From Acidicapsa acidisoli (GTDB lineage Bacteria > Acidobacteriota > Terriglobia > Terriglobales > Acidobacteriaceae), in contig NZ_JAGSYI010000002.1 in the NCBI RefSeq assembly GCF_025685625.1, positions 372,001 to 436,000 of the forward strand: a stretch of DNA of 64,000 nucleotides, read 5' to 3'. Shown here in pieces: positions 3,024 through 23,492 of this stretch (position 1 is its first letter; the number at the start of each line of letters is the position of its first letter). The notes beneath the pieces were generated by a model, which was given only the letters and a program-made list of their open reading frames with translations, ran no database searches and was not told where the DNA came from. Both the position numbers and the translations under genes were made by a program.

Positions 3024-4427
3024 TTAAATTTTGTCCTCAGCGTCCAAGCATTCCAAGGTACGATGATTCGCCAGAACAGCGATTAGACCTCGAAGCTGCG
3101 ATATATCCGCGAGTCCGGTTCGCGAATGCCACTGTGAATACAGCTCAAGAAGAGAGATCGTATCGGGATAAGGTGGAATCTGCGGCCATAACAGGCATAG
3201 AAGCCTGCCCACATCCGCGTCCCCGATGGTGTAACTGCAAATACGTTGCCAGCCCACGTCCCTCTTCACACGGAAGCGCTTATTCTTTGTGGGAGAGGCA
3301 TGAGCGCTGGATTTCGCGATCCGGAACTCGGCTGGAAGAAGGTCTCCGAGTTTGGGCAGTGAAGCGGTCGACTCCCGCCAATGACTTGGATCGAGAACAA
3401 ATTGTCCCGAGCGCAGGATCGGATATCCGTCGATGGTCAAATCTGGATTCCACGCGACAAGGTCTTCGTGTAGGTTCGATTTCAAGGTCCCGCCGTACAT
3501 CTCGTTCGCGCCCACCGCTATGTGCAGAGTACCGCTCATCTTTTCGTCGAACAATGGATCCCCGGTGAGCTCATGCAGGTCGTCATTCACACCGATTCCT
3601 AATTCCGCCAACTGGATCAGAGGACGCGAGCCGGCAACCTTCTTCCATTGAAGCAATTGAGTCAGGTCTTTCACGCCCTTCTCGGGCCCCTGGATCTCGA
3701 TGAGTTCTCCGGTCTTGAAGGTAAGCAGAAGAGGATCGCTTCGGTCCACAACCGTACCCCGAAAGGCTCCGTTCAGGACGAATTTTCCGTGAGCCCGTTC
3801 TTCGAGGGGAGCAATGAAAGTCTCGCCGCCCGGTATGTTACCCCACGTCCCAAGCTGCAGGATGCCTGTACTTGTGATCGGCGGACGCGAGTAACGACCC
3901 AGAAACACATGGAGCGACTGCCGTCCGCACCACGTGTCCTTATCTCCAGTGACGAGTTCGGCATGGTCGCCGACCATCATGGCGGCAGCAAGATCATTGC
4001 ATCTACGCTCTGCCGCTTTGTAATCGATATTGACGCCATACTCGAGCAGTCGCGGTGTGGCATTGGGTACGACCGCGACATAGCGAGTCATGTCCACGGA
4101 GCATTCGAAGAGGCGGCGGCGGTATGGTGCTGGCGTGGATCGACTACCGAACGACAGGATTACTGCTCGCGAGGCCTCAATCGCTTCTTCATCCTCGTCA
4201 GAAGGGGAGTCGGAATCCTCCGTTTTTGTGTGCATCGTCTTGGAGACAAGACGGCGATCGGCGAGTATGTTAAGCCGTTGCGCAGCGGCGCCAATCGCGT
4301 CTGCGAATTCGAGGGTTTCAGCGTCACAAAATATCGTAAGTCGATCACCAGCGCTAAGTGGGATACATTCCGTCAGTACTCTGTCGGCTCCCTTGCGGAT
4401 CGCCTCACTCTGTTTCTCAGACTTCAA
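3024..4427 (-). CDS. M29 aminopeptidase-like protein, first gene of NTPase operon
   Basis: 467 aa. It starts with TTG at 4427, supported by GGAGGG 5 nt upstream. The core matches the thermophilic aminopeptidase (M29, also NicX) fold: NIPGGETF with Glu202, AELGIGVN with Glu275, GTLHIAVG with His302, Tyr311 in the following MYGG, and NLHED with His320/Asp322. These are the expected metal ligands and catalytic residues, so activity is plausible. Odd features are an acidic insert (DSDSPSDEDEEA) near 70-82 and an extra C-terminal region of about 100 residues (370-467) that looks like a small helical or winged-helix module. Free M29 aminopeptidases normally lack both. The tie to two P-loop NTPases suggests a specialised role such as peptide processing or a conflict system. 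The substrate is unknown. Base composition is lower in GC than in the flanking backbone genes. Confidence 0.75.
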   Translation of the reverse strand: MKSEKQSEAIRKGADRVLTECIPLSAGDRLTIFCDAETLEFADAIGAAAQRLNILADRRLVSKTMHTKTEDSDSPSDEDEEAIEASRAVILSFGSRSTPAPYRRRLFECSVDMTRYVAVVPNATPRLLEYGVNIDYKAAERRCNDLAAAMMVGDHAELVTGDKDTWCGRQSLHVFLGRYSRPPITSTGILQLGTWGNIPGGETFIAPLEERAHGKFVLNGAFRGTVVDRSDPLLLTFKTGELIEIQGPEKGVKDLTQLLQWKKVAGSRPLIQLAELGIGVNDDLHELTGDPLFDEKMSGTLHIAVGANEMYGGTLKSNLHEDLVAWNPDLTIDGYPILRSGQFVLDPSHWRESTASLPKLGDLLPAEFRIAKSSAHASPTKNKRFRVKRDVGWQRICSYTIGDADVGRLLCLLWPQIPPYPDTISLLELYSQWHSRTGLADISQLRGLIAVLANHRTLECLDAEDKI

Positions 4428-18186: not shown

Positions 18187-18303
18187 TCGGTGAGAACTTT
18201 CGTTTCTACGGCGTTCCCGCGTCACGATTCCCGATATCGTGTGGACCGGATCGCGCCTGTCCGCGAGCGCAACTTGCGCTCAATCAATCTGAAAGGAACA
18301 GAG

Positions 18304-18879
18304 ATGGCAACAGCATTTATTGGTTTGGATTTCATCAAGGACATCGTTCATCCGGAGGGCAAGATCTCACACACTTCTGCCCCCGCCGCAGAACGCGGCG
18401 TAATCGAGAAGGTGAATCGCGCTTTGTCGACCGGGCGCAAAAAAGGATGGTTCACAGTTCTGGTAAAGGTTGGCTTTGCCAAAGGTTATACGGATCAGCC
18501 AAAGCACTCGCCGTTCTTTGGACGTCTCCACGAGATTGGGGCGCTCGAGGCGGAATCTTCAGGTATGGAATTTCACCCGGAACTCAAGGCAGAGCTTGCG
18601 GATCTGGTGATTGTGAAACCTCGCATCAGCGCCTTTTATGGCACACAACTGGATGCGGCATTGCGGGCACGCAAGATTGACCGGCTGATTGTTGCGGGTG
18701 TGAGCACTGCATGGGCGGTGCAGAGCACGGTACGCGACGCGCACGACCGCGATTACGAGGTGTATGTGTTGGAAGACGCCTGCGCCGCTGCGACGGAGCC
18801 GGTACATCAGTCTTCCATGGAGCTGCTGGGGTCGATAGCCAGGGTGATCCGGGTGACGGATCTGGTGGAGATTTCGTGA
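18304..18879 (+). CDS. Isochorismatase-like hydrolase fold lacking the usual catalytic Cys
   Basis: 191 aa from ATG 18304, with AAAGGAA upstream. The frame opens earlier but has no better start. The fold pattern is the isochorismatase/cysteine-hydrolase family. The Asp is in GLDFIKD, the Lys in IVKPRISAF, and the nucleophile-loop motif is GVSTAWAVQSTVRDA. In amidohydrolases of this family the motif is GVxTxxCV, with Cys as nucleophile; here that position is Ala. True isochorismatases such as PhzD and EntB also lack the Cys, so the protein may be an ether-cleaving isochorismatase type rather than an amidase, or it may be inactive. The next gene overlaps by 4 nt. Confidence 0.85.
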   Translation: MATAFIGLDFIKDIVHPEGKISHTSAPAAERGVIEKVNRALSTGRKKGWFTVLVKVGFAKGYTDQPKHSPFFGRLHEIGALEAESSGMEFHPELKAELADLVIVKPRISAFYGTQLDAALRARKIDRLIVAGVSTAWAVQSTVRDAHDRDYEVYVLEDACAAATEPVHQSSMELLGSIARVIRVTDLVEIS

Positions 18880-19913
18880 TCTCCGCCTGGCGTGATGCGA
18901 TCGATCTCGATCACGTCGCAGCAACCCGTGCCGTGATCGTACTCACGCCGCTGATTCTGCTGGCTTGGATCTCAGGGGAGGGCATCTGGTTGCGCGCGGC
19001 GCTGGTTACCGTATCGGCCTTTATCGCCATGGAGCGTTCCGGACTGGCGCCGATCGGAACTATCCTGCATGGTGCAGCGATCATCGTCTGCTATCTGGCG
19101 CTGGTGGCGGCGCAGACTACTGAGCTCTTGTTTATCCTGGGCTGCGTTTTGTTCGCAGCGGCTTCCATCCTCTTAACGGGATGGGATGCTAGGTTACGGT
19201 CACTGGGTAACTTCACGTTTATCCCGGCACTCTACCTTGCCTGCGAGACCAAGGAGTGGGAAGGGCCGGGCAATCCGTTGCATCGCGGCATTCTTTTTCT
19301 CCCCGCCATAATGCTGGCCATCCTTCCGGTTCTGGTGATGTCGGCATTGGAGCATCGGAAAACTCGTCCGTTGAATGTCAGCCGGCTCTGGCATTTCAGA
19401 GCGGTGCTGAGCTGGGCTGAACGTAAAGAACCTTCGCCGTACTTCGAGGCGATGGTCGCGACTGCACTGGCGGTTGGCCTTGCCGCGCACACGGTGATGG
19501 TGTGGCGGCTGGATCAAGGGCAATGGATGATCTGGTCAGCCGCGAGTGTAATTACCGGCGAACTCGCCAGCGGACACCTAAAGCTGCGGGATCGGATGGT
19601 CGGCGCGCTCGTGGGTGTTCCGGCCGGAATTGGCGCAGGGCTAATACTTCCACACGGCGTCTTCGCGCATGAACTCGCCATCCTCGCAGCGGCTCTGACT
19701 TTGGTTGCACTGCGTCCCTATGTGATCGCCTTCGGTCTGCGTTGCGCTTGTGTCACGCTTGCACTGATGCTTGCAGGGTGGTCGCCCATAATGGCCGCGG
19801 AGCGTGCTTCTCACGTAATTCTCGGGGGACTGATCGGAATTGCAGTTGTGCACTGCGTGCGAGTTGCTGCAGTACTGGGAAGGCAAGCGACAAGTGGTGT
19901 CGAGATAAAATGA
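18876..19913 (+). CDS. FUSC-like inner-membrane protein
   Basis: 345 aa from GTG 18876, which overlaps the previous stop (GTGA) and has GGTGGAG upstream. The chain is highly hydrophobic. Two groups of membrane helices (about 18-125 and 225-330) surround a central polar segment (about 165-210), the layout of FUSC/aromatic-acid-exporter proteins. These proteins help bacteria resist fusaric acid or export aromatic acids. Full-length FUSC transporters are near 600-700 aa, so this is a half-size form. Coupling to SnoaL-like and isochorismatase-like proteins under a LysR regulator suggests detoxification and efflux of one compound, by inference. Confidence 0.7.
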   Translation: MISAWRDAIDLDHVAATRAVIVLTPLILLAWISGEGIWLRAALVTVSAFIAMERSGLAPIGTILHGAAIIVCYLALVAAQTTELLFILGCVLFAAASILLTGWDARLRSLGNFTFIPALYLACETKEWEGPGNPLHRGILFLPAIMLAILPVLVMSALEHRKTRPLNVSRLWHFRAVLSWAERKEPSPYFEAMVATALAVGLAAHTVMVWRLDQGQWMIWSAASVITGELASGHLKLRDRMVGALVGVPAGIGAGLILPHGVFAHELAILAAALTLVALRPYVIAFGLRCACVTLALMLAGWSPIMAAERASHVILGGLIGIAVVHCVRVAAVLGRQATSGVEIK

Positions 19914-20051: not shown

Positions 20052-20082
20052 AAAAAATGCCAGGATGGAGCCATCCTGGCAT
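20052..20082 (-). terminator. Rho-independent terminator of the tRNA-Leu gene
   Basis: On the minus strand a perfect 12-bp stem (ATGCCAGGATGG paired with CCATCCTGGCAT, 2-nt loop) is followed directly by a run of T. It starts 17 nt past the CCA end of the tRNA. This is one of the clearest terminators in the window. Confidence 0.9.
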
Positions 20083-20098: not shown

Positions 20099-20395
20099 TG
20101 GTGCGGGCGGAGGGAATTGAACCCTCACGGCCTTGCGGCCTGCGGATTTTCATACCACTTCGGCTTTCGCCGCCCCGCTGGCGGGTTCGTGGTCTGGACT
20201 ATACCTTCACCATTCCCCTCACGAGGTTTAGGTGCTGCCCGTCTAGTCTCTACACCTTCCCGGAAGTGCTTCCGGGCTTGGCTCGGGATTGCCATTTCAG
20301 GTTTCCCCGACTTTGAGCAGTTCTACGCCGTCGGTTTCCCGATGGGCACTCATGCTTGCTTAAGTCCGCTGCGTCTGCCATTTCGCCACGCCCGC
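20099..20395 (-). tRNA. tRNA-Leu(UAA), interrupted by a group I intron
   Basis: The minus strand encodes two tRNA halves. The 5' exon (20395-20362) has acceptor strand GCGGGCG, a D-arm with GGCGAAATGGCAGACGC, and the anticodon stem GCGGA followed by CTT. The 3' exon (20150-20099) resumes with AAAA and TCCGC, has a long variable arm with stem GGCC-GCAA-GGCC, a T-arm stem GAGGG/CCCTC, acceptor strand CGCCCGC, discriminator A and an encoded CCA. Joined, the anticodon loop reads CUUAAAA, giving anticodon UAA. The long variable arm confirms leucine type. A Rho-independent terminator follows. Confidence 0.93.
20151..20361 (-). ncRNA. Group I intron in the anticodon loop of tRNA-Leu(UAA)
   Basis: 211 nt inserted between U34 and A35 of the anticodon, the same site as the well-known cyanobacterial and plastid tRNA-Leu(UAA) introns. 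It ends with G, as group I introns do. Conserved core elements are visible in the expected order: AATCCCGAGCC (Q-like), GTAGAGACTAGACGG (R/P7-like) and AAGGTATAGTCCAGACC (S/P7-like). The length and core suggest subgroup IC3. It encodes no homing endonuclease. Self-splicing is expected from the family, not shown here. Confidence 0.88.
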
Positions 20396-20507
20396 GGGAA
20401 ATTGGCCACAGCCTCATCATAATGCAAGCAGCGACGAATCTACATTTCGCCAGCCCATTCCTTATGCTGTCGACGAGTGCCCACTGGTTCGCAGCTCCAG
20501 CTTGCGA

Positions 20508-20771
20508 TTATTGCGTTGCCCGATAGCGAATATTGTCCCCGTCGAACCCGAACTCCGCGGAGCATTCCTCTCCTCCACAGATCATCGTTTCAAATCCATG
20601 AAGCTGTCGGCGCGTGATCAACCCGACTGTACCGCATCCTGGACACGCCAATACCGCTACGAAGGGATTGTTGCCGTGTCCCAGCGAATTCGGTCCTTCC
20701 AACAGAAAGACCGTACCTGGTTCCATCTTTTCGGGGATCCATGCTTCGAGGAACTGCAACTCTGCTGTCAT
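20508..20771 (-). CDS. Small protein with a C4 zinc-ribbon-like motif
   Basis: 87 aa from ATG 20771, chosen because GGAGGG lies 4 nt upstream; the longer frame has no such site. The centre has CPGCG and, 22 residues later, CGGEEC, together a CX2C...CX4C arrangement that may bind zinc. The rest is acidic and mixed helix/strand (EAWIPEKMEPGTVFLLEGP). I do not recognise the family. It stands alone between the tRNA gene and the lytic transglycosylase gene. Confidence 0.65.
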   Translation of the reverse strand: MTAELQFLEAWIPEKMEPGTVFLLEGPNSLGHGNNPFVAVLACPGCGTVGLITRRQLHGFETMICGGEECSAEFGFDGDNIRYRATQ

Positions 20772-21011
20772 TCTGCCCTCCAATGGGGGAATTCGACAGG
20801 GTTGCGGCCAAAACGTGAGCCGCAACCGTGCGTGGTTCGCAGCAAGCCGTGAAGTGGAACTTTGATGCTTAACGATTTTTCGAAACGTTTTTCTTGATGA
20901 CAGTGTTTCGCGGTCTGCCAAATCCGTCAACCGGAATCTGGCCATTGCACAGGTATCGATGAGGATTCCCTGTTCACACATAGTTGGATGCATGCTCCAT
21001 CCCGCAGGTTT

Positions 21012-23492
21012 CTACTGTGCCTGTCCGCGCCCTGCTAGAGGTTGCGTAGCGGCAGCCGTGGAACTAGCTGTGGGACTAGCCCCAGATCCAGCATCGGCTC
21101 GCTGCGTAGCCTGTGCGCTCTGCGCATATTGGTCGATTCCGCGATAAATATCCTCATTGCGCAATATGGCCTGCACGTATTCCCGCGTCTCCGTAAACGG
21201 GATCGACTCAACAAATTCGTCGACTCCGTGGTAAGGACCAGCCGCTTCCCAGTCGGTCACACGGTTTTCGCCGGCATTGTAGGCCGCCAGCGCGTATTCC
21301 GAGACTCCACCAAAACGATCCAGCGTCTGCCGCAGATAGCGCGTACCCAGACGAATGTTGAGCACCGGGTCCAGCAGTTGCCGCGTTTCGATGGAGCCCA
21401 GTCCCTCCTCGCGCGCCATCTGCCGCCCAACAGCAGGCAACAACTGCATCAGCCCATAAGCATTGGCATGCGAAATCGCCGAAGGATTGAATTCCGACTC
21501 CTGGCGAATCAACGAGGCTACAAGGTACGGATTGAGTCCGTTCTTCGCCGACTCGGACTGAATCGTATCCCAGTAAACCTCAGGAAAAAGAATCCGCCAG
21601 TACGCCAACGGGATCGACTTGATCGACGCGGACATTGCATAGGGAAGAGCGCGCTTCAGCACACGCATCGCGCGGAAGTTATCGCCAAACGAGCTATAGA
21701 TTTGAGCCTCCGCAAATCCACTCCACGAAGAACTCTCCGGCGCTGCCGCAATCTCCTGCGGAACATATTCGCCTAGTCCCGCGTTCACCAGCAGATGAGC
21801 CTTGACCAAATGAGGATCGCCCACCGGGACCGTCACCGCCAGCTTGGGAATCGTCTCCGGTACATACTTTTCGAGCGCAGGAACCGAAACAGCCGGTGCG
21901 TCCCCCAAGGCCACCAGCCGTTCGCGAGCCATCTGCGCGTAGAAATAGTGGGAATAAGTCCGAATCAGCGTGCGGTAGTGCGCCGCGGCCATCGCTGGCT
22001 CATGATCCTGTTGCTCGTAGAGGCGAGCCCGCCAGTAGAGCGCGCTGACCGTCTCTTTCGCTCCCGGATACAACCGGATCTGCTCTTCGAATATCTTCGC
22101 AGCCTGGTCGTAAAGCCCTTGCCGATACGACCACCATCCCGCGCGCCAATGGGCAGCCGCTGCGTTCGTGCCCTGCGGGAAACGCTCCGCCACCTCAGAA
22201 TAGTACTCGACAGCGCGAGGATAGTCCTTCCGCAGCAGATACATATTCCCGCTTGAGTAAAGCGCATCCGCGAGCCACTGACTGTGCGGGAAACCCGTGC
22301 GCAGCATATCCACAGACGTCGACTGTGCCGTCAGATCGTCTCGATTGCGTGCCAGTTCCATCAGTAGATACAGCCTGCGCGCACCGTTCTCATCGTTCGT
22401 CGCCGCTAAAGCCTCCGCTTCTTCCCGCGTCAGCCGTTTCAGTTTCAGATCGCAAGCCGCTGCGGCCACGGCAAAGCCATTGCGCAACGCCGGATCAACG
22501 CCGCCTCCACGCGCGAGGGCATGATACTGCTCCGCAGCCTCCTCATAACGTCCGGCATTGTAGTAGGCATCCGCCAGGCTCCGAACCTCCGCCTCGGTCA
22601 GCGTAGATTCCATCCCAAGCGCCGTCAGACGCGTCCGCGCCGTCTGCGCTTCAAAAGCCAGAGGCCACGTCAGCAATACATGCTTGTAGACACTTCCCGC
22701 CTCAGCCGTCCGCCCTTGCGCCTGATCTACCTCACCCAGCGCAAGCTGGTATCCCGCACGGCCCGCGGACTCCGGCGCATCCTCCAGCGCTTTCCGGGCG
22801 CCGGCGAAGTCATTCAGCCCAAGCAGAATCTGCGCCTCCAGCTCCGGCACCTGAGCCAGGAAAATGCTGTCGGGATTGCGCTCCGCAAAGTCTTTCAGAA
22901 GAGCCTCCGCAGCAGCATTGTTGCCGCCGTCGTGCTCCGCCTTCGCGCCCAGGAATTCGTCATAGTCGGCCAGTGCGTCACCCGCCGCACGCGCCTGGCG
23001 CAGGTTTGCCGCCGCCTCAGAGAAGCGGTTGTCAAGCAGATAGGCGTGGCCCAGTGCCAGATACGCTGCTGCAGCCGCTTCACCAGTATGCTGATGCGCA
23101 TACGCCGTCACTCCGGCAAACGCCGCAGCCGTGCGAATCGCCACCAATTGTTGCGCCATCGGCCGAAGTTCCTTCGAAGCAACGAAAGCCAGCTTCAGCT
23201 TCGCCGACCGGGCAGCCCTGTTGGCAGTGCGCCGCGCGCCGCGACCGCCCTTCCTCGCTTTGGTGCCAGCCTTCACCGAAGTCTTTGCGTGAGCAGTGGT
23301 TTTCGCCGCCGACGCTTTGGGCGCCGCCGTTTTGGACTTGGTATGCTGCTTCACCGTCGTCGCAGAATCAACCCCTAGCGCCAGGCTTCCCGGAGCAAAC
23401 ATGGAAGCGACCACGGAAGCGAAGATGGACACGCCCAGCACCGCCGCCAGAACGGACCTGCGGTCTTGAAGAATCTGTAAGAGCTGCCCCAT
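21012..23492 (-). CDS. Soluble lytic murein transglycosylase with TPR-like superhelix
   Basis: 826 aa. An N-terminal membrane or signal segment (about 14-36) is followed by a Lys/Ala-rich basic stretch (about 45-100). Then a long alpha-superhelical region of TPR-like repeats follows (about 130-610), as in Slt70. The catalytic SLT domain is C-terminal, with the acid Glu665 in IRQESEF and the motifs AYGLMQLLP and ALAAYNAGENRV. It cleaves the MurNAc-GlcNAc bond with formation of 1,6-anhydro-MurNAc. That product is the substrate of the NagZ/AnmK pathway also encoded in this window. The C-terminal 40 residues are a Ser/Ala/Gln-rich tail. Confidence 0.93.
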   Translation of the reverse strand: MGQLLQILQDRRSVLAAVLGVSIFASVVASMFAPGSLALGVDSATTVKQHTKSKTAAPKASAAKTTAHAKTSVKAGTKARKGGRGARRTANRAARSAKLKLAFVASKELRPMAQQLVAIRTAAAFAGVTAYAHQHTGEAAAAAYLALGHAYLLDNRFSEAAANLRQARAAGDALADYDEFLGAKAEHDGGNNAAAEALLKDFAERNPDSIFLAQVPELEAQILLGLNDFAGARKALEDAPESAGRAGYQLALGEVDQAQGRTAEAGSVYKHVLLTWPLAFEAQTARTRLTALGMESTLTEAEVRSLADAYYNAGRYEEAAEQYHALARGGGVDPALRNGFAVAAAACDLKLKRLTREEAEALAATNDENGARRLYLLMELARNRDDLTAQSTSVDMLRTGFPHSQWLADALYSSGNMYLLRKDYPRAVEYYSEVAERFPQGTNAAAAHWRAGWWSYRQGLYDQAAKIFEEQIRLYPGAKETVSALYWRARLYEQQDHEPAMAAAHYRTLIRTYSHYFYAQMARERLVALGDAPAVSVPALEKYVPETIPKLAVTVPVGDPHLVKAHLLVNAGLGEYVPQEIAAAPESSSWSGFAEAQIYSSFGDNFRAMRVLKRALPYAMSASIKSIPLAYWRILFPEVYWDTIQSESAKNGLNPYLVASLIRQESEFNPSAISHANAYGLMQLLPAVGRQMAREEGLGSIETRQLLDPVLNIRLGTRYLRQTLDRFGGVSEYALAAYNAGENRVTDWEAAGPYHGVDEFVESIPFTETREYVQAILRNEDIYRGIDQYAQSAQATQRADAGSGASPTASSTAAATQPLAGRGQAQ

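Follow-up and report, generated by a model that had tools for sequence, protein, structure and literature searches.

In a 64,000-nucleotide stretch of the Acidicapsa acidisoli genome (contig NZ_JAGSYI010000002.1, positions 372,001 to 436,000; hereafter the window), the leucine tRNA gene with anticodon UAA, tRNA-Leu(UAA), is interrupted by a group I intron. Relatives carry the same kind of split gene within integrative elements that lie between two halves of the host's own tRNA-Leu(UAA), and the intron sits inside the sequence that those halves share. We consider it likely that the window gene is the replacement tRNA of such an element and has outlived it, the intron splitting the attachment (att) core.

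A leucine tRNA gene split by a group I intron

The gene covers 297 bases of the minus strand, from 20395 to 20099 of the window. Its 5′ exon (20362..20395, minus) carries the element-type acceptor sequence GCGGGCG and ends in GCGGACTT, as placed by ARAGORN with introns allowed and by alignments of 8 and 20 relatives; the 3′ exon (20099..20150, minus) starts with AAAATCCGC and encodes CCA (ARAGORN, coordinates rechecked). Between them, at U34|A35, lies a 211-nucleotide (nt) intron (20151..20361, minus) with G as its last base, supported by the Rfam model RF00028 (40.6 bits) and a 21-intron alignment. ARAGORN without introns reports zero tRNAs in the whole window; once introns are allowed it predicts a tRNA-Leu(taa) split at 34-35 by 211 nt, and for the joined exons it returns the same tRNA with a full cloverleaf. 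A first-pass annotation of this DNA had proposed a leucine tRNA that is complete once 211 nt are removed between U34 and A35. Both its tRNA and its intron were right, and the strand (minus) went unstated there.

That annotation also described a group I intron ending in G, which our searches bear out. RF00028 matches 20371-20186 (minus) over the whole model at 40.6 bits (E = 1.3e-8 in a 1.3-kb search), the only match at E ≤ 10 in the 7.1-Mb genome. The score falls short of the curated 50-bit cut-off, and a default scan of the window therefore reports nothing. Six of 20 other loci with this tRNA intron do reach the cut-off in cmscan, three of 14 in one group (L008, 57.1 bits; L343, 56; L338, 52.2) and three of six in another (L248, 64.6; L181, 62.8; L164, 50.9). 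Aligned together, 21 introns fold into 58 consensus pairs, and compensated double changes back 21 of these. The window intron ends in GGTATG, followed by AAAATC; the final G was required by the pattern search at all 107 loci described below, and is a free test in the window gene and 20 aligned genes only. By these sequence measures the group I intron in the window is beyond chance by far, and the tRNA is probably self-splicing.

The window gene is the only UAA leucine tRNA found in the genome, in a survey in which 49 of 54 tRNA matches were read (the five left out were 71 to 75 nt long, one below the cut-off). The other leucine tRNAs found have anticodons TAG, GAG, CAA and CAG, and the intronless UAA arm GACTTAAAATC[CG]G has no exact occurrence in the genome. 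UUA makes up 46 of the 16010 codons in 31 mechanical open reading frames (ORFs) of the window. With a sole UAA tRNA found and UUA codons in use, splicing is probably essential in this organism. An Rfam score under the curated cut-off would suit a tRNA that has decayed beyond function and whose intron is dead, but the full cloverleaf, the standing of the gene as the only UAA reader found, the UUA codons in use and a core conserved across 21 introns make that explanation highly improbable.

Integrative elements that carry the split tRNA

Two relatives (G014, which belongs to the same genus, and G001) have, in a row, the 5′ half of a native tRNA-Leu(UAA), a recombinase gene and an intact intron-bearing tRNA-Leu; in G001 the native 3′ half follows 59 kb further on and the recombinase frame is split into two ORFs. 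In six genomes of Acidobacteriota and Alphaproteobacteria a single contig also holds the other tRNA half, at a distance of 7 to 59 kb. Spans between att cores are 27.7 kb (G232), 29.7 kb (G383), 33.2 kb (G224) and 59.0 kb (G001), and the ends are about 50 kb apart in Acidobacteria bacterium AB60 and 7.3 kb apart in a Caulobacter. The AB60 right end, read by eye, has only the D-arm end, and the 5′ half of G383 is itself partly replaced. Exact patterns find only 3′ halves and no intact native gene in G001, G014, G224, G232, G285, G383 and G431; an intact native gene is additionally present in G138, G429 and G011. These are not genomic islands that restore their target tRNA: the UAA loci read have half genes only at both ends, and the replacement tRNA is a separate gene within the element.

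The recombinase has both the family profile and the predicted fold of a tyrosine recombinase, matching a PHROG integrase family (2.5e-27) and, in Foldseek at E 3e-8 to 1e-7, the Tn1549 integrase, Cre, XerH and lambda integrase. Its model has a mean predicted local distance difference test score (pLDDT) of 78 and a predicted template modelling score (pTM) of 0.53; whole-chain template modelling scores of these matches are low (0.31 for the Tn1549 integrase, E 2.9e-8). Pfam returns a SAM-like domain alone, just under the cut-off, and NCBIfam and PDB sequences give no match.

Pfam scans of 10 of 16, 10 of 24 and 10 of 21 ORFs in the elements of G383, G232 and G224 identify the coupling protein TrwB in all three and, in G383 and G232, a TrwC relaxase as well; a full transfer apparatus may lie outside the scanned ORFs. 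G001 has homologues of TrwB and TrwC. ParB is present in G383 and G232, AbiEii, Mrr, CHAT and FRG domains occur in one or two elements each, and searches of the elements against a defence library gave matches. From this gene content we tentatively read the relatives' element as mobilizable.

The intron site falls within the attachment core

The core common to the broken 5′ and 3′ halves, GACTTAAAA, comprises two anticodon-stem bases and the seven-base loop. In the replacement gene the intron lies inside this core, at GACTT|AAAA. A search of named genomes with a DNA pattern for the intron core gave at least 120 stretches and, within these, 121 hits. Leu(UAA) exons accompany 107 of the hits; the remaining 14, four at contig edges and ten others, lack readable exons of this type and were set aside. 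Hosts of the 107 loci are listed as 72 Alphaproteobacteria, 21 Acidobacteriota, 5 Gammaproteobacteria, 6 other Pseudomonadota, 1 Binatota and 2 unplaced. The 5′ exon ends in GACTT at 102 of these loci and the 3′ exon starts with AAAATC at 105 (CTT and AAAA at the exon ends were required by the search pattern). Most replacements would hold the core were it not for the intron, which separates its two parts by about 200 bp, and an intact attachment core is missing from the replacement genes at the DNA level.

These observations suggest the following course of events. The element's tyrosine recombinase would act on the host tRNA-Leu(UAA) by recombining in its anticodon loop, at the core GACTTAAAA, leaving the two host halves that are seen at the element ends. 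Codon UUA would then need another reader, and the element brings a complete tRNA-Leu(UAA) that begins 18 to 207 bp after the integrase stop codon. A group I intron within the same core would deprive this copy of an intact attachment site at the DNA level, and splicing would restore the tRNA at the RNA level. The intron may in this way shield the replacement tRNA from being cut in its turn. A broader proposal, for and against which we find the case evenly balanced, is that the self-splicing intron acts in at least two phyla as a DNA-level lock that hides the core of the replacement tRNA from the element's own and rival integrases while splicing leaves the tRNA usable, that some of the tRNA-Leu(UAA) introns of bacteria derive from stranded locks like the window gene, and that pressure from anticodon-loop integrases may explain the intron position.

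The window copy as a probable relic of such an element

Intron-bearing genes are present in 8 of 61 genomes searched, A. acidisoli included, and ARAGORN calls an intronless tRNA-Leu(taa) in fetched stretches of nine other genomes; both states occur within one genus. All eight intron-bearing genes first compared share the acceptor GCGGGCG. Among five intronless genes of relatives that were read, four have GCCCGGA and one GCCTGGA.

Upstream, the leader (20396..20455, minus) resembles the integrase gene end and pre-tRNA gap of elements, with local alignment scores of 34, 34 and 32 to L108, L110 and L112 and maxima of 16, 17 and 14 in 500 shuffles each. It includes an aligned stop codon TAG at the elements' integrase end (20440-20442, minus) and, in what is a promoter-like gap in the elements, TATGAT as a possible −10 box (20416-20421, minus). 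A terminator-like hairpin after the tRNA (20058..20081, minus), with a sub-threshold match to Rfam Xoo8, resembles hairpins after seven integrase-adjacent copies (L105, L108-L112, L117).

Genes for a sigma factor, a lytic transglycosylase (21012..23492, minus; Pfam SLT, 3.7e-29) and a 161-aa protein without a Pfam match (20508..20993, minus) precede both the window gene and the intronless tRNA-Leu of G002, G006 and G033. In those three genomes the 161-aa ORF lies just upstream of the native tRNA (tblastn and tblastx synteny), and the synteny ends at the tRNA. By this conserved order, the flank formed by the 161-aa ORF and the lytic transglycosylase is a marker of the native tRNA locus, and since the shared order stops at the tRNA, a different tRNA-Leu would now occupy that locus. 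At this locus in two further genomes, G004 and G010, a decayed native 5′ half still lies next to the intron gene; its scores are 29 and 19, where 100 shuffles reach 12 and 14 at most.

The first-pass annotation had asked whether an acidobacterial copy is ancient or was moved. Our evidence favours movement, of a whole tRNA gene and not of an intron entering a native one, on the basis of the acceptor stem (GCGGGCG versus GCCCGGA or GCCTGGA) and a leader like those of integrase-borne copies; that annotation had missed the element, the broken host tRNA halves of relatives and the fact that intron site and attachment core coincide. Homing of the intron alone into the native tRNA-Leu of the genus would account for its presence and absence within one genus. 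That explanation is largely refuted by an acceptor stem and leader that differ from the native gene; moreover, 211 nt leave no room for an endonuclease gene and G004 and G010 retain a native half beside the intron gene, so that we consider homing very unlikely.

Several observations weigh against an element origin of the window gene. The leader match spans only about 60 bp; a native tRNA half is missing at the locus (score 12, against 16 in shuffles); BLASTX at 1e-4 finds no integrase remnant in the 1500 nt upstream; and no element ORF of at least 250 aa is matched in 104 kb around the window. The locus, holding neither integrase nor element ends, is at most a relic. We nevertheless regard the window copy as probably a stranded element relic: leader, acceptor stem and locus would fit the loss of integrase, halves and cargo in A. 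acidisoli, after which the former cargo tRNA would be the only UUA reader found.

Contig 1 of A. acidisoli has two integrases of this family, one in the locus C1:348756-351528 (L132) and another, 12 kb on, at C1:361797-363080. The order at L132 is an intact tRNA-Leu(CAA), the integrase right behind it, a gene 78% like one in the G224 element and a fragment like the 3′ end of an element-type tRNA.

Regularity of the association

Of the 107 intron-bearing loci, 26 have an ORF of at least 80 aa with a recombinase motif, on the same strand and ending 18 to 207 bp upstream. All but one of these ORFs (25 of 26) are BLASTP homologues of the G014 integrase, some as fragments only; the L241 ORF matches the recombinase regular expression and is no such homologue. 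Twenty of the 26 loci have room upstream, where the core occurs in 17 and a D-arm-to-loop motif in 16, compared with 0 of 359 control windows.

This sample was chosen by the intron, and we also assembled one chosen by the integrase. Searches with the G014 integrase found homologues in 28 of 399 genomes of the class (E ≤ 1e-40), and those with the Caulobacter homologue in 13 of 385 alphaproteobacterial genomes (E ≤ 1e-60, query genome included). Where a UAA core is visible, an intron-bearing tRNA adjoins the integrase in 14 of 15 cases and an intronless UAA tRNA in none of the 15; beside a CAA half, an intron-bearing tRNA adjoins it in 1 of 12. These counts cover only places extracted as loci, and leave out those with no visible broken UAA or CAA half (L120, L123-L125, L127-L129, L335, L336, L340-L342, L344-L349) as well as L126, which has a CAA half and an integrase cut short. 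A Fisher test of the link between UAA and intron gives 1e-5, with related integrases not being independent; four independent pairs (two for, none against, two equal) are too few to decide.

Ten CAA loci have no tRNA within 480 bases after the integrase, which fits a UAA tRNA reading both UUA and UUG. At L122 and L126 an intronless CAA tRNA does lie beyond the integrase, with the core altered at its second base. Other relatives of the Caulobacter integrase adjoin tRNA-Met, Arg or Leu(UAG) genes. Alphaproteobacterial integrase relatives at L336, L341, L342, L344, L345 and L347 lie behind an intact tRNA-Met, and L347 has a second tRNA-Met beyond the integrase.

The main rival to a replacement tRNA stranded by its element holds that the intron-bearing gene is an old resident, as in cyanobacteria, from which elements captured a spare copy, the intron being a passenger without a role in integration. 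Of 75 intron loci that lack an integrase and have 300 nt or more upstream, 3 show an integrase remnant (72 do not) and 1 a tRNA-Leu half. Many intron genes may thus be residents, and the claim that all of them are element relics is weakened. The integrase label also changes at least 23 times on the intron tree, element-borne and lone copies being mixed. Two single loci count, like this scarcity of remnants, against the element account: at L130 (G138 contig 9) an element with a UAA intron tRNA lies inside a tRNA-Leu(CAA) gene, so that the integration target seems flexible, and L131 is a UAA site without a replacement tRNA, in a genome (G429) that also holds an intact native copy. The passenger idea is opposed by the want of any intronless UAA replacement at the 15 UAA-type integrase-first loci, which are few and related, and by the intronless CAA tRNAs of L122 and L126, whose changed second base looks like a different way of evading the core. 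On balance we see capture of a resident gene as possible, if somewhat doubtful.

Possible transfer between lineages

Integrase and intron distances correlate across 27 elements (r 0.64, inflated by near-copies; a value this high came up in 0 of 5000 permutations). With six labels for the target tRNA, the integrase trees require 12 changes, UAA appearing at least five times on well-supported branches (L130 left out), and four changes fall between UAA and CAA. On the intron tree the phylum label changes four times, two of these forced by well-supported branches. Label changes and correlation together fit movement between lineages with repeated stranding or capture, in either direction.

Comparison with known systems

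The cyanobacterial tRNA-Leu(UAA) group I intron is described as ancestral and resident (PMC4033280). The copies studied here share with it the tRNA and a group I intron, a likeness limited to tRNA and site, and differ in being tied to integrases and broken host tRNA genes. The U34|A35 insertion site is presumably that of the classic cyanobacterial intron. If elements are a vehicle that moves the tRNA-Leu(UAA) intron between lineages, this would bear on the ancestral view. A gamma-proteobacterial tRNA-Leu(UAA) intron was reportedly described in 2002. Outside cyanobacteria, Beggiatoa BOGUAY and Thiomargarita are known to have a tRNA-Leu(TAA) gene interrupted by a putative group I intron; the likeness extends to tRNA and intron type, and the available portion of that paper mentions no adjoining element or integrase (PMC4853749).

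Islander lists 2083 islands and describes an anticodon-centred crossover, with tRNA islands restoring their target through a tDNA fragment at attP (PMC4383910). Tyrosine recombinase and crossover position are alike; unlike those islands, the elements here leave the UAA target in two pieces and substitute a separate intron-bearing gene. The nearest parallel is archaeal: in Caldiarchaeum a tRNA-Thr 5′ fragment, a recombinase and an intron-bearing tRNA stand in a row, and Sugahara and co-workers proposed in 2012, citing Randau and Soll, that the intron prevents further invasion (PMC3293823; archaeal tRNA-intron precedent is also covered in the review PMC8371274). The part order and the idea of an intron that blocks invasion are thus the same. 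According to that study (PMC3293823) the Caldiarchaeum introns are protein-spliced, come from one population and are thought to enter via attP, whereas the elements here have group I introns, span two phyla and carry the intron in an additional gene, away from the attachment site. A literature search that covered titles and the starts of abstracts, with most subscription papers outside its reach, found no bacterial element of this kind.

The idea of a tRNA intron as a shield has so far been a suggestion for archaea, and bacterial tRNA group I introns have lacked a clear selective reason for their persistence and anticodon-loop position. In loci of two phyla the intron site coincides with the integrase core, and the need would be evident, as the element breaks the only UUA reader.

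Phages, plasmids and neighbouring genes

A phage origin was considered and rejected. A phage collection gives partial matches in nine records, none covering 80% of the query, and among the 26 viral contigs that have the intron core, 25 lack an ORF with the recombinase motif within 4 kb; the exception, L293, has one of 132 aa on the opposite strand. In many of the viral contigs (L273-L298) the intron core sits inside coding genes, capsid-like by eye. In three large phage-like contigs (L282, L292 and L297) it lies in tRNA clusters, and L282 has two further group I matches (3551-3741 and 4161-4359).

On plasmid pCTX-M3 (L299, 6001-6257) there is an unannotated homologue of the intron-bearing tRNA-Leu, about 77% identical. 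Matches to this type occur in 1272 of 72,556 plasmid records, mostly enterobacterial, and the single record of this kind that was read has it close to aac(3)-IId and a gene for a short AAA ATPase. A plasmid of Bradyrhizobium sp. ISRA443 (L300, 5722-6291) has an intron-bearing tRNA-Leu preceded by a short ORF; the first part of this ORF matches the integrase C-terminus with 79% identity over 34 aa. On one contig of Acidobacteria RBC012 (L209) two intron-core copies lie 3.1 kb apart, each called as an interrupted tRNA.

Elsewhere in the window, an isochorismatase-domain ORF (18190-18879) and a FUSC-like ORF (18711-19913), both on the plus strand and in different frames, overlap by 169 bases; the start of the FUSC-like ORF is probably further in.
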